Origin: Mycolicibacterium sp. TY81
GTDB taxonomy: Bacteria; Actinomycetota; Actinomycetes; Mycobacteriales; Mycobacteriaceae
NCBI RefSeq assembly: GCF_018326285.1
Contig: NZ_AP023362.1
Span: 1,426,001-1,490,000 of the forward strand
DNA length: 64,000 nucleotides
Reading direction: 5' to 3'
The notes under the pieces were generated by a model, which saw only the letters and a program-made list of their open reading frames with translations, made no database searches and was not told where the DNA came from. Below, one piece after another: positions 19,338 through 37,557 of this stretch (positions are counted from its first letter, which is position 1; each line of letters starts with the position of its first letter). The translations under genes and the position numbers were made by a program.

Positions 19338-19945
19338 ATCCCGAAGAGACCTTTCCGTTCGAGGCAAAGCGTGCGCTGGTCCAACTGCTCCGCGGTCCGG
19401 TGGTGACGCATGATGCGCATCGACAGCAATGGTCGGCAATTCTCGCCCACCGCAGCGAAATCGAACGCCGACTGGCCGACGTGTTCCTCGACCTCGTCCT
19501 CGACGAGGACGACGGCATCGCGTTCACCCGGCCGCAGCCCGCACCCGATGACCCCAAATTCGCTCCACCGCAGGTACTTCGGACAGAGACGCTGACCTTC
19601 ATGGACACGCTGGTGGTACTCGCGTTGCGCTACCAGTTGCTCGTGGCACCGCCTGGACAACGGGTGATCGTCGATTACGACGACATCGCCGCCGACATGG
19701 AGCCCTACCGCGGGCGCTACACCACCGATGCGGGCGGCTTCCGGAAGCGGATCAACGCGTCATGGGAAAAGATGAAGAAGTACTCGCTGATCGCCGCCGC
19801 TGACACCGCGGGCCGGTTCGAAGTATCGCCCGTGCTCCGTCAGTTGTTCGACGCGGACGAGGTTGCCCTGGTCGAGGCGGAGTACCAGCGGCTCTTGGAC
19901 GCCGGTAGCGACCAGGACTCCGATACCGAGGCCGACGATGAGTGA
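19334..19945 (+). CDS. jetB: Wadjet protein JetB (DUF4194, MukE/MksE-like)
   Basis: 203 residues, GTG overlapping the jetA stop (GTGA). Winged-helix accessory subunit that binds the kleisin JetA and DNA. Contains the DUF4194 features: AKRALVQLLRGPVV at the N-terminus, VVLALRYQL, the DIAADMEPYRG region, KKYSLIA and the acidic C-terminus DSDTEADDE. Its stop lies inside the jetC start, 8-bp overlap. Confidence 0.88.
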   Translation: MNPEETFPFEAKRALVQLLRGPVVTHDAHRQQWSAILAHRSEIERRLADVFLDLVLDEDDGIAFTRPQPAPDDPKFAPPQVLRTETLTFMDTLVVLALRYQLLVAPPGQRVIVDYDDIAADMEPYRGRYTTDAGGFRKRINASWEKMKKYSLIAAADTAGRFEVSPVLRQLFDADEVALVEAEYQRLLDAGSDQDSDTEADDE

Positions 19946-22900: not shown

Positions 22901-23216
22901 CGGTGGGCAGGCGCAGAAGTTGGTGTTCTTCTGTCTGGCCGCGGCCCTTCGGTACCAGCTCGTCGGGTCGGATGCCGACGTGCCCAAGTACGGCACGGTG
23001 ATCCTCGACGAGGCATTCGACCGGTCCGATCCTGAATACACCCGCCGTGCGGCAGATGTGTTCGATCAGTTCGGTTTTCACCTCGTGCTCGCCACACCAC
23101 TGAAGATGATCAAGACATTGCAGGACTACGTCGGCGGGGTAGCCACTGTGTCGATCCGAGATTCGAAGGCGTCCCGGCTGGGCGTTGCGTCCATCAGCGA
23201 GGCAGCAGGTGGCTGA
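19938..23216 (+). CDS. jetC: Wadjet protein JetC (SMC-like ATPase, MukB/MksB-like)
   Basis: 1092 residues from ATG at 19938. SMC-type motor that extrudes and bends DNA loops. The N-terminal head has Walker A GPSGSGKS (about 41-48); two long coiled coils (about 270-400 and 620-820) flank a hinge near residues 470-560; the C-terminal head has the ABC signature LSGGQAQKLVFF (about 986) and Walker B TVILDEAFDRSDPEY (about 1020). All catalytic motifs are intact. The earlier in-frame start at 19863 lies in jetB and is rejected. It overlaps jetB by 8 bp and jetD by 8 bp. Confidence 0.92.
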   Translation: MSEDVFRHGQHRLARVQLFNWGTYDGYHDLSVARRGFLITGPSGSGKSTLLDAISTVLVPPTKLSFNAAAQGRGRTVASYIRGAYARGSDTDTRELRSRYLREGATWSAVGLTMATADPDGDTVTTLVALFHLKRGSNDLGESGRAFLLFDHDLDITELRHVVSDGIDVRGLKKRWPDVLYNKSYPQFGQRLRARLGIADENAQLLLHRAMSAKGLDSLDRLFRDYMLDEPDTFAEARRAVEFFADLDEAHRRVVQTREQIAALTPLEEWTETRDREAQRTQELGEEQTALDGLAARFELHLAQGWHADAEAALADAVTRDEHASAARHRAATALKDAERARDGNQSLRELTDALDSADEAVRRVVTQRARLGVALRSWDTTVPDTAEGFATMCSQIAREAAELEAGAGAHDAAHSALILAAARADEQVTDLKQQISSLAGQKSNLDHKLLAARELVMRATGLPARSLPFAGELIDVIDANWAGAAERVLGGLGRTMLVADEHAADVAAAVDAAHLGTRLVWRRVDVHRTHRISAVDADSIVNVLQIAEGPWQHWLHFELVSRFDYRRVADARELGRHHRAVTRAGQTRDGDRHIKDDRSAIDDRRHYVLGTSNDSKLQALRDALRKAESDAGSAHRRARAARAESEQRRDRVQSAPGIVAVEWDELDLLAAEAHRLDVGERLAALRGDAEIDRLEAAVVAARGEATRAEKAYDDAHEALYSARQHAQNVASRIDDLKGTAAASDEPSPELTERYRARFDDGKRAALRLNGFPAAERAVANQIRGEYSAAEKKLLQAQHAIETVLQQYLNRWPHPELAAEHGYADDAVAFLRRLRADDLPSVENRFFDLNDRQSNQNLGTLALRIRRAPGEIRRRIDEVNSSLAHSEFDRGRFLKIDVRDSLHPDVTEFLAAIARVQEGSLLADDRQAQEQRFERMRELLGRLGSSDPGDVVWRNRCLDTRRHVTFVGIEMDAEGTAVNHHDSSDALSGGQAQKLVFFCLAAALRYQLVGSDADVPKYGTVILDEAFDRSDPEYTRRAADVFDQFGFHLVLATPLKMIKTLQDYVGGVATVSIRDSKASRLGVASISEAAGG

Positions 23217-24345
23217 ACCGAAGCTGCTGATGCCCAACGACGTGACAGTCAGAGCGCGACGGACGGTGGACCGTCACCTCAAATCGTGGCTTTTCGGCGC
23301 TTCTGTCGATGCGTTGACAATAAGACTGGGTAGCCCGAGCGAGGCGGCCGTCGCCGCCCATCGTACGGTCGTCGAGAACTGGGTCCACGCCTGGCAAGCC
23401 TCGCGCCTCGATGTCCGCTGGGAGGAGCGGCGCTGGGCCAGCCTGGGTAGGCAACTGCTTCCGGTTGCGGTGACCATTGAAGGGGCTGACGCGATCGTCG
23501 CAGCCGCGGGCGAGACTCGACGCTGGCAATCTCTGCTACAGCGCTGCGCGCGGTTACGGGCGCTGGATGACGAGCCGCAGTGGCCGGCTCTGTTGTCCGA
23601 GACATTCCGTTACTGGAATTCCTTGGCCGACAACGACTTCGACCGGCTCCTGGCTACGGTTCGCTGGCTACGTCAGAATCCGAACTCCGGCCTGCTGATC
23701 CGGCAGCTCCCGATACCCGGTGTTGACACGAAATGGCTGGGTACACACCGCACTGCGGTGACCGCGCTAGCGGTGCCGCTCGGTGTGCCTGAGCATCTGG
23801 GACTGCGGGAGCGTGAACTACTGCGGGCGGTCGTCATCGCTGATCCTGCTCTGCGGCAAGGTCTTCCGCGTATCTTTGCTGCCCCGGACCGGGAGTTGGC
23901 GGGGCTTGACCTGGCGGCATCGCAGGTCGTGGTTGTCGAGAACCTACAGACCCTCGAAGCGCTACCTGACGTGCCCGGCACGGTCGCGGTGTTCGGTTGG
24001 GGCGACCATGCCACCGGGGTGGCCGGATTCCCGTGGGTTCGGAATGCGCCGCGTGTCGTGTATTGGGGCGACCTGGACACGGACGGATTCGACATTCTGG
24101 CCCGTTTCCGGGCCGAATGTCCTTGTGAGAGCTTGCTGATGGATCACGCCTCGCTGGAGCGCTGGCATGACCTTGCCGTGCCACACGCTGCGAGTGGGTC
24201 AGTCGATGTGGCGTGGTTGACCGAGACCGAGCGCGCAGCATTGGACGTGTTGCAGCGCAATGGCCTACGTCTGGAGCAGGAGCGCATTCCGATTGGCGCC
24301 GCGGTGGAGTTGTTGATGGCGGCTGGATCAGTCCGGCCGCGGTGA
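23209..24345 (+). CDS. jetD: Wadjet protein JetD (TOPRIM-like nuclease)
   Basis: 378 residues from GTG at 23209, overlapping jetC. The N-terminal DUF3322 part (about 1-190) forms the arm; the C-terminal DUF2220 part is the topoisomerase VI-like TOPRIM domain. The catalytic set is visible as Glu244 in VVVENLQTLEAL and Asp288-Leu-Asp290 in YWGDLDTDGFDIL. JetD cleaves the DNA bent by JetABC. The stop (24345) overlaps the 3' end of the convergent vapC gene by 18 bp. Confidence 0.9.
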   Translation: MAEPKLLMPNDVTVRARRTVDRHLKSWLFGASVDALTIRLGSPSEAAVAAHRTVVENWVHAWQASRLDVRWEERRWASLGRQLLPVAVTIEGADAIVAAAGETRRWQSLLQRCARLRALDDEPQWPALLSETFRYWNSLADNDFDRLLATVRWLRQNPNSGLLIRQLPIPGVDTKWLGTHRTAVTALAVPLGVPEHLGLRERELLRAVVIADPALRQGLPRIFAAPDRELAGLDLAASQVVVVENLQTLEALPDVPGTVAVFGWGDHATGVAGFPWVRNAPRVVYWGDLDTDGFDILARFRAECPCESLLMDHASLERWHDLAVPHAASGSVDVAWLTETERAALDVLQRNGLRLEQERIPIGAAVELLMAAGSVRPR

Positions 24346-24729
24346 GGTATCCAGCTGTAGCGATGTATGCCGCGCGATCGCGTCGAAGTCGCTGTCGGAG
24401 TGCAGGATTGGAATCTGTTCGCGTATGGCATGCGCGGCGATGAGGCAGTCGATCACTTTGCGTACGGTTTCACCGCGACGCCGACAGACGCGGTAAATGG
24501 TTGCGGCGTCTTCATAGTCAGTGGGGGATGTCGGTAGAGTTTGTGCGCGTGCCAACAGGCCACGAAGATCCTTGAGGTGGCGGTCGTTTCGGGCCCCGGC
24601 GAGGATTTCCATCTGGACGGGAGCGCAGATCGCGATCGGCTCGGCGAGTAGCTCGTCGACTCGCACGCACACACCGCTCCCGGTGTTCCTTAGAAACTCG
24701 ATCCAGGCTGACGTGTCAACGAGGATCAT
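24328..24729 (-). CDS. vapC: VapC PIN-domain toxin
   Basis: 133 residues from ATG at 24729, intact PIN domain: Asp5 in LVDTSAWIEFLR, Glu41 in QMEILAG, Asp94 in VIDCLIAAHA, and Asp112/Asp114 in HSDSDFD. Ribonuclease of a type II pair. It follows the antitoxin with a 4-bp ATGA overlap. Its last 18 bp overlap the jetD 3' end in opposite orientation. Confidence 0.9.
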   Translation of the reverse strand: MILVDTSAWIEFLRNTGSGVCVRVDELLAEPIAICAPVQMEILAGARNDRHLKDLRGLLARAQTLPTSPTDYEDAATIYRVCRRRGETVRKVIDCLIAAHAIREQIPILHSDSDFDAIARHTSLQLDTSPRPD

Positions 24730-24929
24730 CGGACGCGGTCGCTGCGCAATTCATCGAGATCGGCGTCCCATCCGGACCCGCGGAGTTCTCGGGCCGCTTT
24801 GAGGTCCAATGCTTCCTGGGCGAGATTGCGCAACGCGAAGTTCACCGCGTCTCGCTTGCTGGTCAAATGGAACCTTCGCATGACGACCTCGCACGCATGG
24901 TCGTCGATGTCGATGTTTGTGCGGGTCAT
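24726..24929 (-). CDS. vapB: VapB antitoxin, ribbon-helix-helix type
   Basis: 67 residues from ATG at 24929. The N-terminal strand MTRTNIDIDD and helix region VVMRRFHLTSKRDAVNFALRNLA match the VapB antitoxin family (type II VapB), with a charged C-terminus that would bind VapC. Leaderless: TATCTT (24941-24936 on the minus strand) is 7 bases before the ATG. The longer frame to 25361 is non-coding in character. Confidence 0.85.
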   Translation of the reverse strand: MTRTNIDIDDHACEVVMRRFHLTSKRDAVNFALRNLAQEALDLKAARELRGSGWDADLDELRSDRVR

Positions 24930-24939
24930 ACACCAAAGA

Positions 24940-24957
24940 TACACCAACGGTTGTGTA
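24940..24957. promoter_or_regulatory. Palindrome at the vapBC promoter
   Basis: 18-bp imperfect palindrome with arms TACAC and GTGTA (7 of 9 positions pair), overlapping the -10 box of the second vapBC pair. A likely autorepressor site. Confidence 0.45.
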
Positions 24958-25025
24958 CCTGCGCTCGAATCCTTCACTGTTCGCTGAACGATGGGGATGC
25001 AGGTTGGTGTCAACCGGTTTCGTGG

Positions 25026-25394
25026 GTGGCGCGTCAATGCGGCTGCGAGCGCGAACGGGTCGAGGTCATCAAAGGTTGGGAAGCGCTGTGTCAACAGGCG
25101 CCCGCGAACACGGCCACGGCCTGGCGCGAGCTTCGCACTCGGCCAGATCATCTCGTGCCGACCGGCCGGCACCACCAACTCAAAGGTCGCCTGGCGACGG
25201 CAGCGCATGGCGGTGTCGAGATGGACCAATGGCAGTACGAAGTGACCGGCGCGGGGCGACTTTGGTACCTCACGCCCAGCGTTTATGTAGCACGTCTGAC
25301 AGCCCGAGGGCCATGGTGGCGGTACGTCGATTACGCCCGGCGGGACAACTCCCGCGGACACCCGCGAGTCGGCAGAATGCCGTACGAGCTGTGA
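25026..25394 (+). pseudogene. Small toxin-like protein remnant
   Basis: A 122-codon frame whose central part (ERVEVIKGWEALCQQAP, HHQLKGRLATAAHGG, QWQYEVTGAGRLWYL) reads as a real protein and resembles a short actinobacterial family I associate with HigB/RelE-like plasmid-stability toxins. The N-terminus has no good start (GTG at 25026 without ribosome site or -10 box) and the C-terminus loses the expected pattern after WYL, running into unrelated sequence. I call it a decayed gene; the family assignment is weak. Confidence 0.4.
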
Positions 25395-25546
25395 AGGATT
25401 ACCTCGACTACACGGCGTTTTCCCGAACAGGCCTGATCAGGTAATTGGTTTCGGCGGAGCACTACACCGTCGACGATGCGACGTACGCCGTCGACAGCCT
25501 CGCCGTTGACTGGAACGTGCAGGCCGCGAAGTCCGCGCGAAGCTAG
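25364..25546 (+). pseudogene. Ltp-family lipoprotein fragment with stop codon
   Basis: Frame 25364-25546 reads RQNAVRAVKDYLDYTAFSRTGLIR, stop, then LVSAEHYTVDDATYAVDSLAVDWNVQAAKSARS, stop. This is one repeat of the Ltp (host cell surface-exposed lipoprotein) domain, in which Arg-Gln-Leu normally follows Gly-Leu-Ile; here TAA (25442-25444) replaces the CAA Gln codon. The lipoprotein signal and further repeats are missing. Ltp lipoproteins of phages block DNA entry; this copy cannot. It overlaps the end of the convergent ATPase gene by 4 bp. Confidence 0.6.
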
Positions 25547-28500
25547 CTCTCCTCAAACCCAGACTGATCGAACTTCAGCGTTTTGGCGTTCTCGGCGACC
25601 GTGCGAATCTTGTTCTCGTCGAACCCGTTTGAGTCGACAGCCTCGATTTCGATTCGCACCACTAGTTCAATTCCTTGGTCGCGCAGGTTTGCGATGACCT
25701 CATCCGCGATGTTCTTGAAATCGAGCGCGATCTTGTCCGAGCTGAGGGTCTTCACGCCGTAGAAGCGGGTCTTGGCCGGCGGGAACCCGACGTCGACGCC
25801 TGGTCCCTTGGCCGGCTGCGGTTTCGTTGGCGACGGACTGGGATCCCCAGATTCGGGGGCAGGCTCTTCTTCGGCACGCTGCTTGGTGGCAACATCGGGG
25901 CGCACGAGCAGGAGCGAGTCCGTGGCAACCGGTGCGGAATTGGCATCGCCAGGAATCCACAAGCCGACGTACCGGCCGTCTTGGTAGCCGGTGGCCAACG
26001 CGAAAGCATCGGTCTCCCAGATCAGGGGAAGCTCACGGACGCCTTCTTGCAACACTTTCCGATCGCGGAGGCGCGGCATATAAGGATACTGGCAGTACAG
26101 CTCCCACAGCGCGCCGAGCGTAACGTGCCCGTCTTTCCAGATCTGTGGGACCTTGTTGATGGCAAGCCGAACGGTCACGGCGGCCTGCTGTGTTGACAGA
26201 TCCCCGTCGCTGCCGAGACGACGGGACACTCGTTCGGCCAGTGACTCCGACTGTCCTTCCACCTTGGTCTCGCGCAGGATGAAAGGCGCTCCCGGATCGG
26301 GCTGTGACGGAATGAGGGCCCACGTAAATGTTTGCAGCAGACGCGATTTGACCGTCTGGTCGGCCGTTGCCTGCCGCTGGGTGGCCTGATCCTTCTGGTT
26401 CGTGGTGAGATCCAGATCGGCCTCGTTGGCCAGGACGTGGCTCCAGCCGAGGTAGTCGCGCACCGCGTTGTCGAGCTCTTCGAGTCGTGCTTCGTCGGCG
26501 GCCAGATACACCAGCATGTTGCGATTGATCCGATTGGCGTTGCCGCGCTGTTCGGTTGTTTTGTGTGCGAATGCCTTTGCCGCAGAATCGGTGCCGCGTT
26601 TGTGAGCGACCTTGGGATGCAGGATCACCAACCGCGCTTCGTCGGTATCGGGGATGTCGATATTGGATTCCGGGCACACGTGGACGCCGGCGAAGTCACC
26701 GCGGGTGTGGGCCTGGGCTTGCAGCCGCAGTGCGATTTCGGCCCAGACGTCTTCCTTGTGGAGGCGTTCGGCCTGATCCTTGGCGGCACGAGTGATGTTT
26801 GCCTGCAGGTCATACCAGTATTTGCCGGAGCCAGAGTAGAAGTAGGTCGCCCGATCACCGAGCTGAGTCAGTGCGGCATGGAAATTCCCGGGGGTGTCAT
26901 CGGGCCTCGCCGTGCCGAGAAACACCCGCTGGACCTCCAGGCCTTTGTGGGCCGAGCCGATGGTGGGAACGGCGCCGAAGAAGACAGTTCGGGCCAGACG
27001 CTTAGTCAGCGACCGCTGACCAAACAATGGTTTCGCGACGTCGACGCGGGCCGGTTCGGAGTTCGGGCCGTCGACGTCAGCGTCGATCACTGCCTTCCAT
27101 GAATCTGGAAGGTAGCTGGTCAGCTCCGAGTTCACCCGTCCTACCGACAGTGGGATCGAGCCGGGCATGATCAACGACGCAGTGTCATTTTCGATGTTCC
27201 AGAGCGCGTGGATCACGGTGCTCATCAGACGCAGGACTCCGCGGGTGCGCTGGAACCGCTCCAGTGATGACCACTCCTCATAGAGGCGGTCGAAGAGCTC
27301 GGGGTGAATGGGATAGGTCCGTTTGATGCGGTCCTCGTAGGCAGTGTCGCGGCACTCGCGGGGGAAGTCGTCGCTGTACTTGCGGTAGAAGTCGACGTAG
27401 GCGCGTGCGGTGGCCCCGATCGATGCCAGCGCAGCGGCATCGGGCTGTTGGAACAGTCGCTGCCTGACGATCTGGTACGCCTCAAGCGATGAGGCCGGGC
27501 GCCATTGGTCGGCGACGCGCCCAACGACGCGCTGCAGGCGATGTAGGGCTTCCAGTCCGTTCGAGCCGCCGACTTCCTCGGCGCTTCCGGCGATTGGCTC
27601 CGCACTGTCGATGGAATTGGAAGCCGGTATCGAAATCACCAGCAGCACACCAGACGTTCCTGTGGCGGCCTCGGTGAGCGATTGCGCGAAGGTGAACTGA
27701 TCATCGAACGTGCCACCGGCGAGGTCATCGCGTCCGACGAGTGAGCGGGCGTAGGCAACCCATTCGTCGATCAGGATGACCGCGGGGGAGTACTTCGCCA
27801 GCAGTTCGTGGAGGGCTGCGCCCGGAGGCGTTCGGTTGACATCGGCTTCGGCGACAAGTGCGTACGCCTCCGCGCCGCCCAGCTGCCAGGCCAACTCGCC
27901 CCAGAGCGTGTTGACATGAGGGCCGCCAGTCTTGGGTTCGCCGGCTGGGCTGAAATGATTGCCGACGATCGCGACGCGGTTCACCATGCCGGCTTGGTAA
28001 CCGTTGGCGGTGAGCAAGTCTGCGGTCTCCTGCGGGAAATCACCCACCGGAAGCCCGGCAGCGACATGCCACAAGGCCAGCATCGAGTGGGTCTTGCCGC
28101 CACCGAAGTTGGTCTGCAAGTTGATCACCGGTGGCGCGTTGTCGTCTCCGGCCAGGCGCCGAACGGCTCGGCCGACGAGATCGGTCAGGCCTTCGGTCAG
28201 GTAGGTACGCCGGAAGAATGTCACGGGATCGGCGTAGTCCGAATCCTGTTCTCCGCCAAAGGCGACCTTGTGCAGATCGGCCGCGAACTCGGAGGACGCG
28301 AAGTTGCCCGTCGCAACATCATCGTGCGGTGGCAGCACTTCCCGCCACGGCTTGAGTCCGGTGGCCTCAGGGTTGTCGACAGCGGCTTTGAGGACCTTCT
28401 TGTCGTCCTTATCGGCGGTGACCCGGCGCAGATTGCGCTTGATGGTTTGGACTTCGTCGGCCTCGGCGCCGCTGCCGATCAACCGGAGCAGGCGCTCGGC

Positions 28501-28875
28501 GGTGTCCAGAGTGCGGTAGGCGTCGTCGTCGCTGAATGAACCGTTGTGCGCCCAGGTGTTTCGCGCCTCCCGAAGTTCGATGGCGAAGGACTCGCCAGCC
28601 TTGCCGAGTGCTTCGTTGAACGGATACCAGCCTTTTCTGAATCCGCCGGTGATGTTGCCTTCGGTGAGCATCCGCAATTGCACCTGCGGGTCGAGCGGCT
28701 CGTATGTCTTGGTCGACGGGGCGCCGTTTTTAGAGTCCTTGTTCTGGACGAGTTTGGGCCACGCCGCGCCGAGCGCCGGGTCGCCTTGCCCGATCACCGA
28801 GGATATGAAGTCATCCAAGGCAGGCGCGATGACCTCGAACATGCGGTTGATGCGGTCGCGGTTGCTCAGCGCCAT
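25543..28875 (-). CDS. HEPN-DUF499 AAA-type ATPase of the helicase-methylase-ATPase system
   Basis: 1110 residues from ATG at 28875 (MALSNRDRINRMFEV). The first about 130 residues are a Swt1-like HEPN domain with an RX4H motif, Arg105 to His110 (RNTWAH). A DUF499-type ATPase follows: Walker A FGGGKTH (257-263) and Walker B AVILIDE (365-371), then HPELFDRLYEEWSS and a Lys/Pro-rich linker near 1030 before a small C-terminal domain. DUF499 proteins pair with DUF1156 methylases in defence loci. Last of three minus-strand genes, one base after the methylase stop. The nuclease role of the HEPN motif is inferred. Confidence 0.85.
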   Translation of the reverse strand: MALSNRDRINRMFEVIAPALDDFISSVIGQGDPALGAAWPKLVQNKDSKNGAPSTKTYEPLDPQVQLRMLTEGNITGGFRKGWYPFNEALGKAGESFAIELREARNTWAHNGSFSDDDAYRTLDTAERLLRLIGSGAEADEVQTIKRNLRRVTADKDDKKVLKAAVDNPEATGLKPWREVLPPHDDVATGNFASSEFAADLHKVAFGGEQDSDYADPVTFFRRTYLTEGLTDLVGRAVRRLAGDDNAPPVINLQTNFGGGKTHSMLALWHVAAGLPVGDFPQETADLLTANGYQAGMVNRVAIVGNHFSPAGEPKTGGPHVNTLWGELAWQLGGAEAYALVAEADVNRTPPGAALHELLAKYSPAVILIDEWVAYARSLVGRDDLAGGTFDDQFTFAQSLTEAATGTSGVLLVISIPASNSIDSAEPIAGSAEEVGGSNGLEALHRLQRVVGRVADQWRPASSLEAYQIVRQRLFQQPDAAALASIGATARAYVDFYRKYSDDFPRECRDTAYEDRIKRTYPIHPELFDRLYEEWSSLERFQRTRGVLRLMSTVIHALWNIENDTASLIMPGSIPLSVGRVNSELTSYLPDSWKAVIDADVDGPNSEPARVDVAKPLFGQRSLTKRLARTVFFGAVPTIGSAHKGLEVQRVFLGTARPDDTPGNFHAALTQLGDRATYFYSGSGKYWYDLQANITRAAKDQAERLHKEDVWAEIALRLQAQAHTRGDFAGVHVCPESNIDIPDTDEARLVILHPKVAHKRGTDSAAKAFAHKTTEQRGNANRINRNMLVYLAADEARLEELDNAVRDYLGWSHVLANEADLDLTTNQKDQATQRQATADQTVKSRLLQTFTWALIPSQPDPGAPFILRETKVEGQSESLAERVSRRLGSDGDLSTQQAAVTVRLAINKVPQIWKDGHVTLGALWELYCQYPYMPRLRDRKVLQEGVRELPLIWETDAFALATGYQDGRYVGLWIPGDANSAPVATDSLLLVRPDVATKQRAEEEPAPESGDPSPSPTKPQPAKGPGVDVGFPPAKTRFYGVKTLSSDKIALDFKNIADEVIANLRDQGIELVVRIEIEAVDSNGFDENKIRTVAENAKTLKFDQSGFEES

Positions 28876-28876
28876 G

Positions 28877-31675
28877 TCAGTCGTCCCCCTCGTCGTAGTC
28901 CAACGTGCCCTGCGCGCTGGTTGTCGGAGCATCAGCCCGTGCCACGTCAAGAATTTCGGGCCAGCTGGTGACCAGGCTGTTGAAGCTCAGCGCGTCCTTG
29001 GTCCAGCCGTTGCTCTCGGCGATCCGGAAGAGTAGGTGGGCAAGCTCTTTCACCAGATCAGCATCGATTGCGGCGTCCGGCCGGGTCAACGCAGTGCGTA
29101 GGAATTCGCCGGCGGGGGTGATGCCGTCGCCTTCCAGCTTCTTGATCAGGTGGTGCAGGACTTCCCAGTTGCTGGTGTGCAGATCGGCGAGTACGTCGTA
29201 GTCGGAAGCCAAGTCGGACGGCTTGATCAGCTGCACCTTCCCGGCTCGGCTGATCAGGATGCCATCGCGATCCATGGCGTCGACGGAGGTGTTGCGGGCG
29301 TTGGCCAGGTTATTGGCGTCGCCGAAAGTGCCTGTGTCGTAGCCATGTTGGCGATACCAGGCGATGGCGAACCGACTGGTCGAGTCGAAATCGCCTTCTT
29401 GCTCATTGAGCACCTGGTCGAGAATCTCGTTGATGCGTGCGAGCGCGGACCGCACGGACATCTTGGAGCCGTCTGGTTCGAGGACCGCCAAGTAGCGAGA
29501 GAACACGGCCATGCCAGGGCCGATTGCTGCCTGAGGCAGGTCAACCGGGGCGATCGCGCCTTGTTGCAACTCTCTGAGCGCGGAGGGCAATTCGGCCTTG
29601 AGGGCCTCGATGAACGCGCGGCGGTCGGTCTGTGGCGCCTCCTCAGGACGAGGGCGGAGCGCTAAGACGATTGACGAGGCAAGGGCATTGGTTCCCTGGG
29701 AGAGCATCCGATTGCTGAGCTCACTGCGGAGCGGCCAAGTGGCGGTGACCGCCCAACCTGAGCGGATCATTCCTTCCAGCAGGGTTTCCCAGCCGGACGA
29801 TGCTTCGCCAGCATCTGTGGTCTCGGATTGTTTGAAGGCGTAGTAGACGGTGATCGGGTAGTCGGGGAGCGCGGATTCGCGTGCCCGTCTGAAAACCTCT
29901 CGGAACCCGTCTTCAAAGAATCTATGCGCTCCCTCTCGCCCGCCGTGGCGGTAGGGGTTCGCGACAAGCTCTTCCGACTTGGGCACCAGCATCGTGCTGA
30001 GCAGCTCGGGGTGGATCGCCCGTAGCGAGCGGCGCAGCCACACGTAGAAGAAGTCCGATAGGTCCGAATAGCCGATGTTGTCGTAGTACGGCGGGTCAGT
30101 GGAGATCAGCAAGCCATCGAGAGGGCGGTCGTCAGCCGATGCTTGCCTGGCCTCTCCGATCGTGTTGCCAGCGACTTGGATGCTCTTCACGATGCTGTTC
30201 AGACTGACTGTGTATGAACCCGCTGCCTTTCCAAATGGAGTCGTATCGGGGAAGTCCCAGATCATCGGGATGGCCTGGCGAGCAAACAGATTGCGAATCT
30301 GTTCTTTGGTGTTCTCCCAGCGGCACAGCGCGTTGGCTATGTCGGCAAGTCTGCTGACACCTAGTCCGAGATACGTCGCTACCGCGTCGGCGTAGGCAGC
30401 GGCGCCGGTGCCGCCGGGTTCGAGGCGGTCGCCCTCGGGCATGCCTGCGGCGCACGCGTCCGCGAGTACGTGCTCACGTGCCTCCGTGACCAGGTCGCCG
30501 AGCGTGGTGAGCGCGGTGAGCTGTCGCGGAGTGAACAGGTCGGCAAATGTTGTCATGCCATAGTTTGGAGTCTTGAAGTCGCGCGGATTGTTCGGCAGTT
30601 CACCTCGTGGCACGTCGTCGGGACGCGGAACCTGTGCCGCAGCTTCGTGCTCAGGCGTTGGTTTCAGGTAGATGCGGGTGCGGTTGCCCTCAGCGACAGT
30701 CGTCATCAGTTGTGAACCCATCCGTCCCGCGCGGCCCTCGGCCCGAATGTATTTCAGCTCAACGGCTGATCCGCAACCGATACACGTTGCGCCGGTTCGC
30801 CCGACAGTGCCGTCGGTCTCTGTTGTCGGCGCAGTCTTCGGATCGTGGCCGATGGAGAAGCTGACCTTGCCGTCGACCACGGACGGCACGACGTACGCCT
30901 CTTTGCCTTTCTTCTTACCGAGCCACCACGACCGCACCAACGGCATCGCAATACGACACGCGGGGTTGGGGCAGGTGACGGTACGTGCCCAAATCCAGGC
31001 AATGACAGTCGCTTTCGACCCATCCGGCAGGGCTGCCTTAGGGTACAGGTGCCCGATCCGCTTTTCGGCCTCATCGCGCATCCACGCCCCATAGGCCCGC
31101 ACATCGGCGGCCAGACCTTCGGCGCCTTTCCATGAGCGGATCTCGGATTCAGCGAGGCCCGGGAACACTGGCGGCAGGTCGCGGAACTTCGGCGGAATCT
31201 CGATCAGCGCCTTATTGATCAGTACCGCAACGGGATTGAGGTCCGATGCGTGCGCCTCCAGGCCGAGCCGCTGTGCTTCGAGCGGTATCGTGCCGCCACC
31301 GGCGAACGGATCGAGGATGGGTGGGGGATTGCCACCAGTGGATTTGAGAATCTCCGCGTGTGCTTCGGCGAGTAGCTTCTCGTCGCGAATGTTCTCCCAA
31401 ACGACGAGGCGCTCGATCAGTTTGTGCAGACGGTCGCGTTCCTTGCGCTGCAATTCTTCGGTGGGGAACTCTTCGGGATTCGAGGACGGGTCATCGACGA
31501 GTTGCGCAAACAGCACGGCGCGGGCAGCAGCGAGCGGACGGCGAGCCCACCACAGGTGCAGTGTTGACGGGTGACCGTGGCGGATCGACTTCTCGCGGGC
31601 CGATTCCTTGTTGATGGCTTCCAGCGGAAGCGCAACCTCGATCAGTTTGCGCTTGGGCGCGTTGGTATCAGTCAT
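28877..31675 (-). CDS. DUF1156 adenine-specific DNA methylase
   Basis: 932 residues from ATG at 31675. N-terminal DUF1156 region has HPSTLHLWWARRPLAAARAVLFAQL, followed by the AdoMet motif DPFAGGGT (122-129) and the catalytic DPPYY (527-531), the order of an amino-methyltransferase. Four cysteines (235, 240, 298 and 301; CPNPAC and CIGC) suggest a small zinc ribbon inserted between the motifs. Likely modifies host DNA to mark it as self. ATG overlaps the helicase stop by one base (TGATG). The target sequence is unknown. Confidence 0.88.
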   Translation of the reverse strand: MTDTNAPKRKLIEVALPLEAINKESAREKSIRHGHPSTLHLWWARRPLAAARAVLFAQLVDDPSSNPEEFPTEELQRKERDRLHKLIERLVVWENIRDEKLLAEAHAEILKSTGGNPPPILDPFAGGGTIPLEAQRLGLEAHASDLNPVAVLINKALIEIPPKFRDLPPVFPGLAESEIRSWKGAEGLAADVRAYGAWMRDEAEKRIGHLYPKAALPDGSKATVIAWIWARTVTCPNPACRIAMPLVRSWWLGKKKGKEAYVVPSVVDGKVSFSIGHDPKTAPTTETDGTVGRTGATCIGCGSAVELKYIRAEGRAGRMGSQLMTTVAEGNRTRIYLKPTPEHEAAAQVPRPDDVPRGELPNNPRDFKTPNYGMTTFADLFTPRQLTALTTLGDLVTEAREHVLADACAAGMPEGDRLEPGGTGAAAYADAVATYLGLGVSRLADIANALCRWENTKEQIRNLFARQAIPMIWDFPDTTPFGKAAGSYTVSLNSIVKSIQVAGNTIGEARQASADDRPLDGLLISTDPPYYDNIGYSDLSDFFYVWLRRSLRAIHPELLSTMLVPKSEELVANPYRHGGREGAHRFFEDGFREVFRRARESALPDYPITVYYAFKQSETTDAGEASSGWETLLEGMIRSGWAVTATWPLRSELSNRMLSQGTNALASSIVLALRPRPEEAPQTDRRAFIEALKAELPSALRELQQGAIAPVDLPQAAIGPGMAVFSRYLAVLEPDGSKMSVRSALARINEILDQVLNEQEGDFDSTSRFAIAWYRQHGYDTGTFGDANNLANARNTSVDAMDRDGILISRAGKVQLIKPSDLASDYDVLADLHTSNWEVLHHLIKKLEGDGITPAGEFLRTALTRPDAAIDADLVKELAHLLFRIAESNGWTKDALSFNSLVTSWPEILDVARADAPTTSAQGTLDYDEGDD

Positions 31676-34600
31676 CAGAATGGCTCGGTTCCCTTGTCCC
31701 ACATCTTTTTCCAATCCCCACGTATGCCGGTCGCATCGAATCCGCCGAGATCCGTCGAGGCGAATGGATTGTCGAGATACCGCACTTCGTCGTGTTCGGC
31801 GCCGCGCGGGTCGACCCGCACCAGCGCCAGTCGGTACCGCGGCGCGGCATTCTTGCCGAGAATCACCTCGTTGTGGGTGACGAAGAAGTCGGTGGCGCCG
31901 TCGATGCGGGCCTTCACTTCGACGCGGTAGGTGTCGCCGTCGGCATCTGAGGACAAGATGTCAAAACCCTTGTTGTTGAAGGCTTGTTCGACCGGATCAC
32001 GTCCCAGCGCTCGTTCGACACCCAGCACCAGATCGACGCCGCGGCGCTCGACTTCCTTGGTCTCCTTGGCATGCATTGGTGCAGAGGGCGGTAGCTCGTT
32101 ATCTACCATGCCCACCGGAAGCACCAAGGCCGCGGTGACGATGCGCGGCGGCTTGGTCGACATCAATGCCTGCCGGTCCAGCAGCTCTAACCGTTTACGG
32201 AGCCGGGAATCAAGCTCGACCGCCTTGCGATTGAGGCTCTCCGACGACTCCTTGGGCTTCGCTCCGGTCTGCTCCTTCTCGGACGCCACGAGCGCCTCGA
32301 GCAGTAGCCGATCGCGTTCTTCCTCGAGGCGTTTGGTCACCAGTTCGCGGGTCTTGGCGAGTTCGGCGGCACGGCGCGGCTGTACCTCTGCCAGGTATTC
32401 GGGTAGTTGGGTGGTGATGATCCAGCTGGTGGCGCGGTCTTCGGCGTCGGCAAGCCAGGACAGTTGGCGGGCTGCGGTGACTGCCGGCGTCTCCGGCGCA
32501 GCGACACAGTCCAGGTAGGGAGCGGGTCCGGCCGGTCTGACGGCGCACTGGCTGTCCACGTATGCATAGCCGAACCGCCTGGACACCGAAGCGCCGGTAG
32601 CGTCGGTCACCTCTTCGGTGACACCCACAAGGAGCTGCGGCTCGTCCAGCGTCGCCGACACCAACACCGTCCCGTCGGTGAGAGTTTCCCCGAAGCGGCG
32701 GATCGCTTCGCTCATCACTGCGTCATGAAGCGGGTGGCCTGGGGCGAGCAGATCGGCGCGGGTGAGTTCTTCGGAATGTACGTGTCCCAGGTCGAAGGTC
32801 ACGCGGTCGTATCTGGTGGGAACGGGCCCGAACTTGCCGTCGCGTAATGGTGCTGGGACGTTGGTGATTTCGTATCGGCCGCGCTCGCGTTTGGTGATGC
32901 GTCCGCCGAGTCGGGTGAAGGCCGCCTTGAAGGCCATCTCGATGTAGTGGGGCTGCAACCGGCGTGCTCGCGCGTCGTCCATGGCCGCGCGTAACTTCTC
33001 CAGCTCGGCCTCGGCGAGATGGTCGGACGCCAGGGCACGTTCTTCGAGCAGTTCCTTGAGCCCGTCGGAGACGTTGTGATCGATGACTTGCTGCATCTTG
33101 GCGCGTGTCTCGGGCAGCTCGCCGTAGCGAATGGCCTCCAACAGCAGGTCGCGCAGCGGGGTCTCGTTGAACGCTTCGCCTAGTACATCGAAAACCTTGC
33201 CGCCGTAGGCTTCCCGCTGTTCTTCGATCTTTTCGAGCAGGCGGACGAAGACGTCACCCTCGCGGGTGTTGCTGGCCACGATGTTCCACAGCCGGCAGAC
33301 TTCCTCCTGGCCGATGCGGTGGATACGGCCGAACCTTTGTTCGATGCGATTCGGGTTCCAGGGCAGATCGTAATTGACCATCAGGTGCGCGGCCTGCAGG
33401 TTGAGTCCCTCGCCGGCGGCATCGGTCGCCAGGAGGATTTGGCAGTCTCGGTTCTTGGTGAATTCTTCGGTGATCTGGCGGCGCTCACGGCGCCGGACCC
33501 CACCATGAATGGCCTGCACGGCAGCAGGTTTCCCGAGCAGCGAGCGGATCCGGCCGGCCAGGTAGTCGAGGGTGTCGCGATGTTCGGTGAAGATGATGAG
33601 CTTGCGCGGCCATCCGTTGGTATCCGTCGTCAGTGCCTCGTCGTGAAGGATGTTGCTCAGCTCGGTCCACTTGCGATCGGTACCGGAATCGCGAACTTGT
33701 TTGGCGGCGCGGGTCAGCTCCGACAGTTCGAGCAACTCGGCGTCGAGTTCGTCCACCGTCTGCGCTGCAGTAGCGGCATCGAGCAGTTCCTCTTCGAGCG
33801 CTTCGATCTCTTCGGAGTTGTAGTCGTCGGTGTCAAGGGCATCGACATCGACGGTCGGTTCGTTCTCGACGTAGGTGCCGTTGACGATTTCCTGCTTCTT
33901 GCGCTCGAGCCGTTCGGTTCGGCGGACCAGGCTCTTGTAGATCGCCTCGGGGCTGGACGCGAGTCGTCGTTGCAGCACGGTGAGCGCGAATCCGACTGTG
34001 TTCTTGCGCTTTCCGCCCACCCGGTCGGCGCGGTTCATGCCTTCGCGGACGTAGGCGGTGACCTGCTCGTAGAGCGAATGTTCAAGGGCGGTCAGCTCAT
34101 AGGGCACTGTCTCGGCACGGCGCTCTGGGAACAGCTTCTTGCCGTCGAAGGTGAGGAGGTCCTCCTTGACCATTCGGCGCATGATGTCGGCGGTGTCGGT
34201 GGCCTTGGTGTTCCTGCCCTCGAACCGGTCACGGTCCAGCAGAGTCAGGAAGAGATTGAAGTCCTCGTTCTTGCCTGAGTGCGGCGTCGCCGTCATCAAG
34301 AGGAGATGACGCGTGATCCGGCCGAGAAGCTCGCCGAGCTGAAAACGCTTGGTCTTCTCCAGCTTTCCGCCGAAGTAGTGGGCGCCCATGCGATGCGCCT
34401 CGTCGACGATCACCAGATCCCACTCGGTCTCCGTGAGCTGAGCCTGCAGTTCCTCGTTGCGGGACAGCTGGTCCATACGGGCGATGAGCAGCGGGTTGGT
34501 CTCGAAGACGTTGAGGTCGACGTGGGCATCGATGAGCTGGTTGGTCAATAGGTTGAACCGCAGCCCGAACTTGAAGAACAGTTCGTCCTGCCACTGTTCC

Positions 34601-35100
34601 ACCAGGCCACCCGGGGCGACGATCAGGCATTGGCGGACGTCGTCACGCAGCAGGAGTTCCTTGATGTAGAGACCCGCCATGATGGTCTTGCCGGCACCGG
34701 GATCATCGGCGAGGAGGAATCGCAGCGGCGTCCGGGGGAGGAGTTGTCCGTAGACCGCGCGGATCTGATGCGGCAGTGGACGCACGTCGCTGGTGGCCAC
34801 CGCCAGCATCGGGTCGAAAAGTCCTGCGAGGCTGATTCTTTGGGCCTCGGCTACCAGTTTGTAGTCAGATGCTGATGCGTCGAATGGTCGGCTGGCCGCC
34901 GCGGCTGCACGCAGCTGGTCCTGGTCTTTCCTGAAGACGACTTGCTGACCGAGCGCACCGTTGTTGGTCCGGTACGTCAGCTCGACTGCCTCGGTGCCGT
35001 GCTGTTGGGCGGCGAGCACGGTGACGATTTCAGCGGGGATCAGTCCTTCGATGCGGAGTCCCGATTTGAGCTCTTCTAGCTGCACACGACCTCCAGGCAT
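31675..35100 (-). CDS. SNF2-type helicase with C-terminal DUF3883 nuclease-like segment
   Basis: 1141 residues from ATG at 35100 (MPGGRVQLEELKSGLRI). SNF2/DISARM DrmD-like ATPase motifs: Walker A DPGAGKT (133-139), DEAH (233-236), TATPHSGK and NRIEQRFGRIHRIGQ. An acidic insertion lies near 440-480. The last about 95 residues read GFDILSSDADG then YRVEVKA, i.e. Asp1047 with Glu1061-Val-Lys1063, the layout of DUF3883 and PDDEXK-like domains. First gene of the operon; its 5' region carries two palindromes. A start at 35175 is possible but lacks a ribosome site and adds unrelated residues. Confidence 0.87.
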   Translation of the reverse strand: MPGGRVQLEELKSGLRIEGLIPAEIVTVLAAQQHGTEAVELTYRTNNGALGQQVVFRKDQDQLRAAAAASRPFDASASDYKLVAEAQRISLAGLFDPMLAVATSDVRPLPHQIRAVYGQLLPRTPLRFLLADDPGAGKTIMAGLYIKELLLRDDVRQCLIVAPGGLVEQWQDELFFKFGLRFNLLTNQLIDAHVDLNVFETNPLLIARMDQLSRNEELQAQLTETEWDLVIVDEAHRMGAHYFGGKLEKTKRFQLGELLGRITRHLLLMTATPHSGKNEDFNLFLTLLDRDRFEGRNTKATDTADIMRRMVKEDLLTFDGKKLFPERRAETVPYELTALEHSLYEQVTAYVREGMNRADRVGGKRKNTVGFALTVLQRRLASSPEAIYKSLVRRTERLERKKQEIVNGTYVENEPTVDVDALDTDDYNSEEIEALEEELLDAATAAQTVDELDAELLELSELTRAAKQVRDSGTDRKWTELSNILHDEALTTDTNGWPRKLIIFTEHRDTLDYLAGRIRSLLGKPAAVQAIHGGVRRRERRQITEEFTKNRDCQILLATDAAGEGLNLQAAHLMVNYDLPWNPNRIEQRFGRIHRIGQEEVCRLWNIVASNTREGDVFVRLLEKIEEQREAYGGKVFDVLGEAFNETPLRDLLLEAIRYGELPETRAKMQQVIDHNVSDGLKELLEERALASDHLAEAELEKLRAAMDDARARRLQPHYIEMAFKAAFTRLGGRITKRERGRYEITNVPAPLRDGKFGPVPTRYDRVTFDLGHVHSEELTRADLLAPGHPLHDAVMSEAIRRFGETLTDGTVLVSATLDEPQLLVGVTEEVTDATGASVSRRFGYAYVDSQCAVRPAGPAPYLDCVAAPETPAVTAARQLSWLADAEDRATSWIITTQLPEYLAEVQPRRAAELAKTRELVTKRLEEERDRLLLEALVASEKEQTGAKPKESSESLNRKAVELDSRLRKRLELLDRQALMSTKPPRIVTAALVLPVGMVDNELPPSAPMHAKETKEVERRGVDLVLGVERALGRDPVEQAFNNKGFDILSSDADGDTYRVEVKARIDGATDFFVTHNEVILGKNAAPRYRLALVRVDPRGAEHDEVRYLDNPFASTDLGGFDATGIRGDWKKMWDKGTEPF

Positions 35101-35228
35101 GACTTCTTGGAGGTGTTCGCTGTCGTCTGCAAACCGGTGTCGCCCGAGAGCGCGTTGCGCGCAGGGGTATGCCAACCGTCAGACATGTCGACTGGCCACC
35201 CCGACGCTCCCTTCGTCCGTCGGGAGAG

Positions 35229-35242
35229 CCATGTATAGATGG
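35229..35242. promoter_or_regulatory. Operator palindrome 1 of the helicase operon and XRE gene
   Basis: CCATGTATAGATGG, a near-perfect 14-bp palindrome (one mismatch at the fifth base) between the divergent helicase and XRE genes. It matches the second copy at 35269-35282 in 13 of 14 bases, 40 bp apart, about four helical turns. Proposed binding site for the XRE protein. Confidence 0.6.
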
Positions 35243-35268
35243 TGCAGCCGACAAGTCGGCATATTACG

Positions 35269-35282
35269 CCATCTATAGATGG
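35269..35282. promoter_or_regulatory. Operator palindrome 2 at the XRE gene start
   Basis: CCATCTATAGATGG, a perfect 14-bp palindrome. It spans the first possible ATG of the XRE gene (35279), so the protein would directly block its own expression. Contains TATAGA in its centre, similar to a -10 box. Confidence 0.65.
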
Positions 35283-35587
35283 TCGACGCCGGAATGGCGT
35301 ATCGGCAGATTGCAGGGGTGCCGCAGTCCGAGATCGAGCGAAAGCTCGCTGGTGCTCTCGGTCGACGGTTGGCGGGGCTCCGGGAGGAGCGTGGACTCAC
35401 TCAAGAAGCCCTGGCTGAAGCCAGCGGTATCAGCCGGAATCACTACCAGCTGCTGGAAAGCGGCATCAACAACCGAAAGACCAAGCGCCCGGCCAATCCG
35501 CGGTTATCAACGTTGGTGGCGCTCAGCGATGCATTGGGTATGTCGGCAGCGGAGTTGGTGGCCGAAGTCTTGAGTGAGCGCGACTGA
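35279..35587 (+). CDS. Small XRE-family regulator
   Basis: 102 residues at most. Helix-turn-helix of the Cro/C1 type, RRLAGLREERGLTQEALAEASGISRNHYQLLESGI (about 29-63); the remainder is a short C-terminal helix AELVAEVLSERD and it has no separate ligand domain. Two starts are possible: ATG 35279, inside a palindrome, or ATG 35294; neither has a clear ribosome site. Divergent from the helicase operon with a 178-bp gap that holds both palindromes. Probable repressor of the operon and of itself. Confidence 0.8.
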   Translation: MVDAGMAYRQIAGVPQSEIERKLAGALGRRLAGLREERGLTQEALAEASGISRNHYQLLESGINNRKTKRPANPRLSTLVALSDALGMSAAELVAEVLSERD

Positions 35588-35811
35588 ACTGGGTTCATTC
35601 CATTGGGTGGGCGCCGATCGACGCCAAGTAGCGTCTCCGATGTTCCGGCGCCCGAAGATGAGCTTGTATGGGTGCCCGGTGGCCTTGACCGGCTTGGCGC
35701 CACCGTGACACCTTCCGGACCCGTGGTTTCGAGCCCGATCCGATACCAATCCGTAAGCGAGGAGCGATTCGCTCACCCTCCGTCCGTTGGCAACAACCTA
35801 CGCTGGCCGGT

Positions 35812-37557
35812 ATGTCCAAGTCCGCACGTGGCAAGCAACCCAAGCGTCACCTTCGGTCGGTGCCGACTCCGCCTTCGATCAGACCTGAGGACCAGCCGCT
35901 GTTCCAGGCGCTGCGTACTGCGTTGCGCTCCGACCAGCCTCTGGCATTGCTCGAACTCGTGAGTGGGCTGATCACTGCCACCGATCCGCGCTCTCGCAAT
36001 CCCTGGGCTCGCGATGACGATGGCCCCAGTCTCGACGCCCTGATCGAGTCGTTTATCGGTACCTCGTTCGCGCAGACCACGGCCGCGTTGTCCGTCATCC
36101 GCGAGCTGGTCCCGGACCAGGCGATGGCGGCGCGTATCGATCGCGAATTGGCCGCGCGCCGCCAACCGTTGCCGAATTGGCTTGACGCACTGGCGAATAC
36201 CCGCGCCGACCCGGAAGTGTGGTTCCTGACGCACGTTCTTGGCGACGGTGACGACTACTTTTTCGGCGCGACGCTGCCCGACGGCCGGCAGCTGACGGCG
36301 CTGGTTTATGTCGACCACAACATGGGCACGGTGGTCAAAGACGCATTCGTCGTTCCGGAACCGATTTCAGTCGTGCTGGAGCGGCTACAACCGTCGATCG
36401 AAGACGGGCAGTCACTGACACCGTTCGACCCGGCTGAGGCGCGGGCGATAGTCGAGAAGGCGATCGATTTCGGATCCCGATTGTTCCCGCCGTTGGAGTC
36501 GGAGTCCTGGCCCATGTGCCGGCCTCTCGTGGAGTGGCTGGTGCGTATGCAGCCGGCCGGAGGCGCGGTGCCGGAACGTCATGAATGGACCGACGAGGAG
36601 AGAACGGCAATCGCCGACGATTTCTTCGCCTCGCGGTTCGGTGACGCCATGGACACCGCCGATGCGCGTGGTCTGCTGGACTCGATCTTGTGGTTCGCGA
36701 CCGAATGGGGACCCGGTGATCCCTACCGGTGGAGCCCCGTCAACGTTGAAATCCTCCTCGTGGACTGGGCTCCGCGAAAGATAGTGGCGGACACGGGGTA
36801 TCTCGCACAGCTACCGAACGTGTTGCGCTCATTCATCGCCTACTGCCATCTCCGCCAAGGCATCAGCGCCACCCTCACGGCCGAGACCTTGACGTCCGTC
36901 GGTAGATGGGAAGGCGAATTTCAGCGGATGATCCGGACGGATCGTCCGCAGGGTGCGGCGGCGCTGGCCGCCCGGTTGCTGGGGGAGGGCTTCGGCGGAT
37001 TCGACGATGACGACCCAAGCCTCGCAGAGATCATGCTCGAGCGCTTGGACGCGATGGTCGGCGGCCATTTCCAGTTGCAGAATCTGACCGACGAGCCATT
37101 GGATGATGAGCCGTTTGACTGGGCGGGCATAGCCGACGACATCCGGCCCGCCGTCGAGACGGTGCTGGCCCTGTGCGACCGCTGCGCGGATGAGCTCTTC
37201 GATGTCGAGCACCGGACGGCGATGCGTCGCTTCCTGGGCCGTGCTGCGGTGGCCGATCCAGCGATCTTCCGTCGTAAGGCATCGTTGGAACGCGGAGCGG
37301 CCGCCGTGGCCTGGGTGATCTGCCGAGCCAACCACTCCATCGGCCGATTCGGCACGCCCCCGGTCACTGAACTGCTGGGGTGGTTCGGGGTCAAGGGCAG
37401 TGTTTCGCAGCGTGCCGAGCCGTTGTTACGTGCGAACGGGGTTGCCCCACATTCGGCTTACGGTGACATGAGACTCGGCGCGGCGGACTTGCTGACCGCC
37501 GCGCGACGTCGATCGATCATTCAAGTGCGAGATCGCTACCAGGGGAGTGCGGGGTGA
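35812..37557 (+). CDS. Hypothetical protein, 581 aa, unknown family
   Basis: Large soluble protein with a Lys/Arg-rich start (MSKSARGKQPKRHLRSVP), then a mixed helical body. Segments such as DPEVWFLTHVLGDGDDYFFGATLPDGRQLTALVYVDHNMGTVVKDAFV look like a real domain; I do not recognise it. No signal peptide, membrane helix or Walker motif. The start ATG at 35812 is leaderless-type: TACGCT (35799-35804) lies 8 bases before it. Downstream of the XRE gene on the same strand, 224 bp away, with separate promoter. It could belong to the defence island or be an unrelated actinobacterial gene. Confidence 0.65.
   Translation: MSKSARGKQPKRHLRSVPTPPSIRPEDQPLFQALRTALRSDQPLALLELVSGLITATDPRSRNPWARDDDGPSLDALIESFIGTSFAQTTAALSVIRELVPDQAMAARIDRELAARRQPLPNWLDALANTRADPEVWFLTHVLGDGDDYFFGATLPDGRQLTALVYVDHNMGTVVKDAFVVPEPISVVLERLQPSIEDGQSLTPFDPAEARAIVEKAIDFGSRLFPPLESESWPMCRPLVEWLVRMQPAGGAVPERHEWTDEERTAIADDFFASRFGDAMDTADARGLLDSILWFATEWGPGDPYRWSPVNVEILLVDWAPRKIVADTGYLAQLPNVLRSFIAYCHLRQGISATLTAETLTSVGRWEGEFQRMIRTDRPQGAAALAARLLGEGFGGFDDDDPSLAEIMLERLDAMVGGHFQLQNLTDEPLDDEPFDWAGIADDIRPAVETVLALCDRCADELFDVEHRTAMRRFLGRAAVADPAIFRRKASLERGAAAVAWVICRANHSIGRFGTPPVTELLGWFGVKGSVSQRAEPLLRANGVAPHSAYGDMRLGAADLLTAARRRSIIQVRDRYQGSAG

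Follow-up and report, generated by a model that had tools for sequence, protein, structure and literature searches.

What kind of defence system is encoded at positions 25543-35100 of a 64,000-nucleotide stretch of the Mycolicibacterium sp. TY81 genome (below, the window), and what might be the part of the small regulator gene that faces it? A first-pass annotation of the letters had described a helicase-methylase-ATPase (Hma) operon of three long minus-strand genes, overlapping or abutting at 1 bp, opposite an XRE gene. We find three intact minus-strand genes, hmaC, hmaB and hmaA, faced by a plus-strand XRE gene, and consider them a likely case of a restriction-modification (RM)-like Hma cassette under a regulator/operator module that is common to several modification-based defences. 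The features of the operon are as follows.

25543..28875, minus strand: hmaC, a HEPN-DUF499 AAA+ ATPase (PADLOC HmaC, 879 bits; Pfam HEPN_Swt1 and DUF499)
28474..28845, minus strand: HEPN_Swt1 domain of HmaC (Pfam, 103.5 bits), with the motif R105-x4-H110, numbered from ATG 28875
28877..31675, minus strand: hmaB, a DUF1156 amino-methyltransferase (PADLOC HmaB, 1127 bits; Pfam DUF1156, 109 bits)
30056..30955, minus strand: recognition-like (target-recognition-domain-like) segment of HmaB, aa 241-540, with a trough of identity at aa 481-510 (30146-30235)
31675..35100, minus strand: hmaA, a SNF2/RapA-like helicase with a C-terminal NOV_C nuclease domain (PADLOC HmaA, 1301 bits); its reading frame opens at 35175
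31810..32022, minus strand: PD-(D/E)XK-type motif region of NOV_C, HmaA aa 1027-1097 from the ATG

The open reading frames (ORFs) span 25543-28950, 28877-31714 and 31675-35175 on the minus strand and 35279-35587 on the plus strand. With likely starts at ATG 28875 (HmaC, 1110 aa), ATG 31675 (HmaB, 932 aa) and ATG 35100 (HmaA, 1141 aa), the HmaB ATG overlaps the HmaA stop by 1 bp and a 1-bp gap lies between the HmaB stop and the HmaC ATG, which bears out the packing first described. The earlier family assignments (SNF2 helicase, DUF1156 adenine methylase, HEPN-DUF499 ATPase) are likewise recovered by Pfam as SNF2 and Helicase_C, DUF1156, and HEPN_Swt1 with DUF499. All three proteins have the PADLOC Hma models as their top matches, which places them in the three-gene Hma operon; the runner-up models reach 415 (DrmD) and 350 bits (BrxH) for HmaA, 130 bits (type II methylase) for HmaB and 132 bits (DUF499) for HmaC, and the model of another system nowhere comes first. 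The NCBIfam antiphage models fall far under their cut-offs (DUF499, 172 against 1200 bits; DUF1156, 118 against 1000; DrmD, 369 against 610), and the whole genome has a single DUF1156 match. The catalytic motifs, including the Walker, DEAH and DPPYY motifs previously said to read through, are intact and near-fixed across alignments of 85 HmaA, 91 HmaB and 89 HmaC sequences. Judged by its genes and motifs, the operon is a complete Hma system, a new example of an already described type. DISARM was rejected as its identity on the DrmD scores, 415 bits against 1301 for the HmaA model in PADLOC and below the cut-off in NCBIfam; BREX (bacteriophage exclusion) was rejected with BrxH as a weaker helicase match of HmaA than the Hma model, and DpdE with a lower score than the Hma models. 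BrxC and PglX are absent among the PADLOC matches listed for HmaC or HmaB (E<=0.001), and PglZ among those listed for the eight proteins scanned (for HmaA, the best 25 of 56).

The regulator gene and its putative operators comprise three further features.

35279..35587, plus strand: XRE-type helix-turn-helix regulator, divergent from hmaA (HTH_3, 46 bits), with a conserved start at GTG 35318
35269..35282, no strand: putative operator P1, the perfect palindrome CCATCTATAGATGG, predicted from its sequence
35229..35242, no strand: putative operator P2, CCATGTATAGATGG, 40 bp from P1

In 10/10 palindrome-bearing loci the conserved XRE frame opens with a GTG that follows the start of P1 by exactly 49 nt, whereas the frame of the ATG at 35279, which would be a leaderless start inside the operator, is closed by stops in three of them (L196, L249 and L250; our handles for loci begin with L, those for genomes with G). 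GTG 35318 is hence the likely start, which gives a regulator of 89 aa: the facing HTH_3 ORF of the first-pass annotation is present at 35279-35587, but its start has to be moved. Both palindromes lie in the intergenic stretch between the likely starts, 35101-35317. Within the 6.47-Mb genome the pattern CCATSTATAGATGG occurs at two sites with at most one mismatch, P1 and P2, against none for the reversed-pattern control. Across 396 genomes of the genus the exact palindrome CCATCTATAGATGG is found in seven, at eight sites (two in G323), each of them at an XRE homologue; its reversed control is present in 2/396. Homologues of the XRE (E<=1e-15) are encoded by 10/396 genomes, namely these seven, G372, G049 and G103. 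In G372, P1 reads CCATGTATAGATGG. An order-wide search of 397 genomes with the XRE of G353 as query gave six with a match, three of them outside the genus, of which two carry CCATGTATACATGG. These genome sets are samples in which close relatives share history, and the number of loci should not be taken for a number of independent events.

A second site precedes P1 by 40-41 bp in 6/10 loci (the window, L109, L195 and L177 and, with one mismatch, L193 and L194) and by 55 bp in L196; L176 has no second site with fewer than four mismatches, and L249 and L250, checked for exact sites only, are not among the 40-41-bp or 55-bp cases. In 6/10 loci, as a raw count, a TAnnnT hexamer directed toward the defence operon is found at 2-3 nt from P1, so that P1 would overlie that promoter. 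Taken by sequence alone, the fixed spacing of P1 and GTG in all ten loci would put a cognate operator at the regulator's own promoter, as with C proteins or BrxR. The palindrome with its flank was found in no viral contig, and the XRE had no plasmid match at E<=1e-8.

The paired regulator and operator mostly stand next to defence systems, and these are of several kinds. Hma is divergent from the XRE in the window and in G244; in G353 the divergent genes are BrxA-BrxB-BrxC-PglX (BREX type 1), and in G372 they are PglW-PglX, followed by a BrxC/PglY-like piece in an ORF cut at the stretch edge, PglZ and BrxHI (BREX type 2). G104 and G013 have an ORF of ~1014 aa with a weak REase_III match and then a type III methylase (879 and 952 bits), while in two other genera (G465, G673) BREX genes are again divergent from the XRE. 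Within the genus each of the four kinds is represented by one to two genomes, as the window and G244 have nearly the same cassette. The XREs of the BREX-1 and BREX-2 loci are 87% identical to each other and 70-73% to that of the window, all three being at one chromosomal slot beside a major facilitator superfamily (MFS) gene; those of the slot loci and the type III loci, which are located elsewhere, are 57-69% identical. The presence of the same module in other modification-based systems suggests that defence operons could be exchanged under one control logic. No report of an XRE regulator common to Hma and BREX was found among the matches listed from the open-licence literature. Apart from the module itself, Hma resembles BREX types 1 and 2 in joining an adenine methylase to an ATPase, but differs in that no PglZ is among the matches listed for the Hma proteins and in that HmaA has its own nuclease domain.

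Other small regulators adjoining defence systems are BrxR/CapW and RptR (PMC9122601, PMC12255303), and BrxR is found beside several kinds of such systems (PMC9122601). However, BrxR is a WYL-domain protein whereas the regulator of the window is of the XRE/HTH_3 type, and RptR, which is tied to type I RM, binds TAGCTA, from which the window's operator differs. With the C proteins of type II RM systems the XRE shares its small size and HTH_3 domain, the paired palindromes and a position upstream of a modification-restriction operon, but it is divergent rather than ahead of an endonuclease gene, and the PADLOC Control_protein model matches it very weakly (19-20 bits; capH, 31 bits).

A replacement of one operon by another can be followed at the MFS slot. 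The window and G372 are 96.5% identical over 18945-25026, which covers Wadjet and VapBC genes, and 95.9% over 35722-37543; between these flanks the 10 kb of Hma in the window is replaced by ~20 kb of BREX type 2 in G372, and the XRE/operator stretch, at 73% DNA identity, has diverged unlike the flanks. Hence, regulator and operon seem to move as one cassette. We rejected the idea that defence systems generally gather between leuB (named by eye) and the MFS gene: in 40 of 104 genomes with the MFS anchor that were examined the slot is mostly small (<6 kb in 39/40, ~14 kb in L225), and searches for Hma, BREX, Jet, type III methylase, HNH and XRE gave no match in any of the 40 stretches at E<=1e-10, counting only matches of >=35% identity except for the XRE. 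The slot is therefore an occasional site and not a busy one.

Several observations at and around the slot deserve separate mention. Past P2, window 35168-35190 has a weak similarity to L194 (G353), up to a common ATGTCTGACGG that lies next to hmaA in the window and at the likely start of brxA in G353; this is only suggestive and possibly a fossil of operon exchange. Adjoining Hma on the plus strand (17883-24345) is a Wadjet type I system (JetA 542, JetC 1199 and JetD 340 bits; JetB by position alone), and between the two, on the minus strand (24328-25361), a VapBC toxin-antitoxin pair (PIN, VapB_antitoxin) whose VapC start is the same in G372. The Wadjet-Hma-XRE island of the window may be compared with L250 3268-9993, from another genus, in which JetC (Wadjet), an XRE with operator and BREX genes stand side by side. 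In the BREX-2 cassette of L193 (6752-7699) an HNH gene (PADLOC HNH, 73 bits) overlaps the end of the XRE gene. On the other side of the XRE a plus-strand ORF of 581 aa (35812-37557) is conserved beside the slot in Mycobacterium sp. ST-F2, where it is in two pieces, and in G372; it had no PADLOC, Pfam or NCBIfam match at E<=0.001.

XRE proteins are frequent near defence genes, a circumstance that we count toward a doubtful but serious alternative, namely that the Hma system is an ordinary one whose regulator is private to it, the likeness of that regulator to the other XREs reflecting the common descent of a frequent family and not shared control. Consistent with it, the window's near-twin (L109/L143) is the only other mapped mycobacterial Hma locus with such an XRE, so that the module is not needed for Hma, and seven further actinobacterial Hma loci have XREs of only 34-46% identity and showed no palindrome of this kind. 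Yet the palindrome and its 49-nt spacing to the GTG are kept in every one of the ten loci though the XRE of the window is but 58-73% identical to those of other systems in the genus, and the exact palindrome is nowhere else in the 396 genomes. Some further points tell against a shared module: it is rare in the genus, with ten genomes of 396; the partial XREs of G049 and G103 have neither a palindrome nor, by eye, a defence system; G098, from the order-wide set, has an XRE without a palindrome; the operator-bearing XRE of G022 is beside a 460-aa neighbour without PADLOC or Pfam match, and that of G323 has no defence system recognised by eye beside it; and regulator and operon might just be transferred jointly.

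Fusions of HEPN and DUF499 in RM-type operons with a SNF2 helicase joined to a new restriction endonuclease (REase) domain were recorded by Anantharaman (2013), and the set of COG1743 methylase, DUF499 protein and helicase-nuclease was remarked upon by Bell (2020). Hma was named by Payne et al. (2021; PADLOC, PMC8565338), with 1,638 instances in 26 phyla, for the same helicase-methylase-ATPase three-gene operon; the accessible text of that paper names no regulator, HEPN or nuclease, all three of which the window has. Rakesh and Krishnan (2026; PMC12839542) class the Hma-type operon as Type-1 BREX-related (BR) and RM-like, proposing that it restricts in an RM-like way and falls back on HEPN in the last resort, and citing an experimental Snf2-nuclease study (Liu et al., 2024, Halomonas); the BR classification is repeated in a 2026 BrxC paper. 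The earlier statement that the mechanism is largely undescribed should be updated accordingly. Type-1 BR has the same DUF499 ATPase with HEPN, DUF1156 N6-methylase with an internal recognition insert and Swi2/Snf2 helicase with an active REase, and is further characterised by a TUDOR domain in the helicase and an RRM fold at the C-terminus of the HmaC protein; in the main text of PMC12839542 neither 'recombin' nor 'XRE' occurs, and the accessible parts of the paper give no account of segment exchange or of a shared operator. Beyond the first-pass annotation, the present analysis adds the NOV_C nuclease domain, the exchangeable recognition segment and the operator of the divergent regulator.

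HmaA matches SNF2, Helicase_C and NOV_C (57 bits) in Pfam, and its closest PDB relative by sequence is RapA. The motifs GAGKT, DEAH and QRFGRIHRIGQ are nearly fixed, and in NOV_C D1047, E1061 and K1063 are identical wherever a row has a letter (84-85/85), as would be expected of the C-terminal PD-(D/E)XK REase that Type-1 BR couples to its Swi2/Snf2 helicase. HmaC has conserved GGGKT and ILIDEW motifs, in line with the DUF499 AAA+ ATPase with Walker motifs, often fused to HEPN, of that class. An alternative is that the system works mainly by abortive infection, with the HEPN RNase as its effector and the methylase only as a damper, and not by restricting DNA; the R (0.99) and H (1.00) of the RX4H motif are indeed conserved in 89 rows. 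We regard this as unlikely, the catalytic residues of NOV_C being equally conserved and HEPN being present in 1370/2446 taxa against 1921 for the helicase-nuclease fusion (PMC12839542). Near the HmaC end, aa 991-1020 (window ~25816-25905) form a second variable block, with 43% identity in close copies and 29% overall, and lie in the direction of the C-terminus, where PMC12839542 places a variable RNA recognition motif (RRM) domain. Some relatives have a GmrSD_N gene between hmaB and hmaC, confirmed by Pfam in L025 (6897-8795), L067 (12796-14478) and L121 (12754-14679) and seen by eye as a similar arrangement in 22 loci (20 without duplicates); the window lacks it.

In HmaB the motif DPFAGGG (aa 122-128) comes ahead of DPPYY (aa 527-531; 0.99 of the 91-row alignment) with a variable stretch between them, which is the alpha order of amino-methylases; an insert between motif I and DPPY likewise marks the DUF1156 methylase of Type-1 BR, a correspondence drawn on sequence grounds. 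Four cysteines (235, 240, 298 and 301) are conserved at 82-99%. Payne et al. (2021; PMC8565338) called HmaB a 5-methylcytosine (m5C) methylase, but DPPYY, which is of the N6A/N4C amino type, and PMC12839542 point to an adenine methylase.

To compare the segment with the rest of the operon we used HmaA relatives from 45/396 genus genomes (E<=1e-100), ten of which are 42-44% identical; nine of the ten cover part of HmaA, may be other SNF2 helicases and were left out, and the alignments include the tenth, G268 (L167), which has a 37% HmaB beside its HmaA. Of 417 loci from a scan of named genomes, 80 were retained. Partial copies of the three proteins and those with internal stops were left out of the counts, and duplicates were counted once. 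The close copies (HmaA >=81%; 30 HmaA, 24 HmaB and 27 HmaC including the window) are mycobacterial except for Sinomonas humi, and 2628 of the 4095 HmaB pairs are complete for all three proteins.

In the close copies aa 241-510 of HmaB have mean identities of 25-59% per 30-aa block, the trough at aa 481-510 being at 25% in 24 close copies and 24% in all 91, against 70-99% for HmaA blocks and 71-97% for HmaC blocks except the 43% block already mentioned. For 471 pairs with HmaA above 80% the means are 85 for HmaA, 82 for HmaC, 76 for the HmaB core and 49 (range 30-93) for the segment, whose mean in 1748 pairs with HmaA below 60% is 45. Over the complete pairs the Spearman correlation of HmaA is 0.95 with HmaC, 0.87 with the core and 0.41 with the segment. 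For instance, the window and its nearest relative, Mycobacterium sp. ST-F2 (L143/L109), share 97% of HmaA and 96% of HmaC but 41% of HmaB aa 425-520; with Gordonia asplenii, by contrast, the window shares 78% of these residues and 50% of HmaA. At the DNA level a 5.9-kb block (26501-32400, bounds placed by eye) is 85.5% identical to ST-F2 between flanks of 99.1% and 99.9%, with 30101-30400 inside it at 59.7%. In a quick segment tree (48 of 91 rows, chosen by us; 10/45 inner branches starred) the window falls, with strong support, into a group of eight whose other members come from Gordonia, Frankia, Streptomonospora, Salinibacterium, two Intrasporangiaceae and one mycobacterium, and L143 lies outside it; a tree forced to pair the window with L143 was rejected (approximately unbiased test, p 0.013), the pair having been chosen after the identities were known. 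Judging from these comparisons, the segment is one that has been exchanged between lineages. This suggests that HmaB probably sets the target and, by analogy with PglX, which carries target choice in BREX, probably does so alone. That the segment is instead a fast-drifting or decaying region, as the broken hmaB genes of relatives such as G029 and G037 and the quickness of the tree might hint, is highly improbable given its almost invariant flanking motifs, its likeness to a copy with a 50% HmaA and the sharply flanked DNA block.

The exchange of a recognition segment nevertheless has its own weak points. Shallower mosaic stretches (~81-96%) relative to ST-F2 near 38-40 kb, 35.8-36.8 kb and 23.2-24.3 kb mean that hmaB is not the only place of recombination; the AlphaFold model of HmaB is middling (pTM, the predicted template modelling score, 0.53), and Foldseek found no PDB match to it at E<=0.001. 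By sequence, neither HmaB nor HmaC had a PDB relative at that threshold.

In mycobacteria, no fewer than three Hma copies are disrupted (G029, G024 and G037). Transposase-like ORFs, seen by eye, split hmaB in G029 (L022 10421-11944) and hmaC in G024 (L030 4778-7596). In G037 (L023/L024) an insert of ~21 kb lies in hmaB exactly at the DPPYY codons and encodes a phage-integrase-type recombinase, two large ORFs without Pfam match, BrxA, PglX, PglZ, BrxL and a SIR2-like PDC-S65 gene; one defence system is here lodged within the methylase gene of another.

Reading the activities, the direction of regulation and the order of events from the protein families, we infer the following course. HmaB would methylate adenine at a target sequence that its exchangeable central segment selects, thereby marking the host DNA; HmaC, as an AAA+ ATPase, would assemble the complex and scan, and the helicase-nuclease HmaA would destroy unmarked incoming DNA, with the HEPN RNase of HmaC as a probable second, cell-sacrificing effector held in reserve. 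The XRE would bind P1 and P2 and most likely repress the promoters of its own gene and of hmaABC; relief or balancing of this repression would let methylation run ahead of restriction, though a timing role as a C-protein-like activator is also possible. No report of the methylation target of Hma was found in the accessible Hma literature.

A broader proposition, which we regard as evenly poised, is that the XRE and its palindromes are a portable switch for unrelated methylation-based operons (Hma, BREX-1, BREX-2 and type III RM) in Mycobacteriaceae, in which operons are swapped together with the switch at one slot, the specificity of HmaB is swapped separately and one timing logic is retained. 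If this is true, these bacteria would alter their defence at two levels while keeping the timing of methylation versus restriction under one control. As the operator is recognisable to the base pair ahead of four kinds of system, the avoidance of self-attack in a new genome would become testable with one protein and one site, and strains that are alike in HmaA and HmaC but unlike in the HmaB segment would offer natural pairs for reading the methylation target of Hma.

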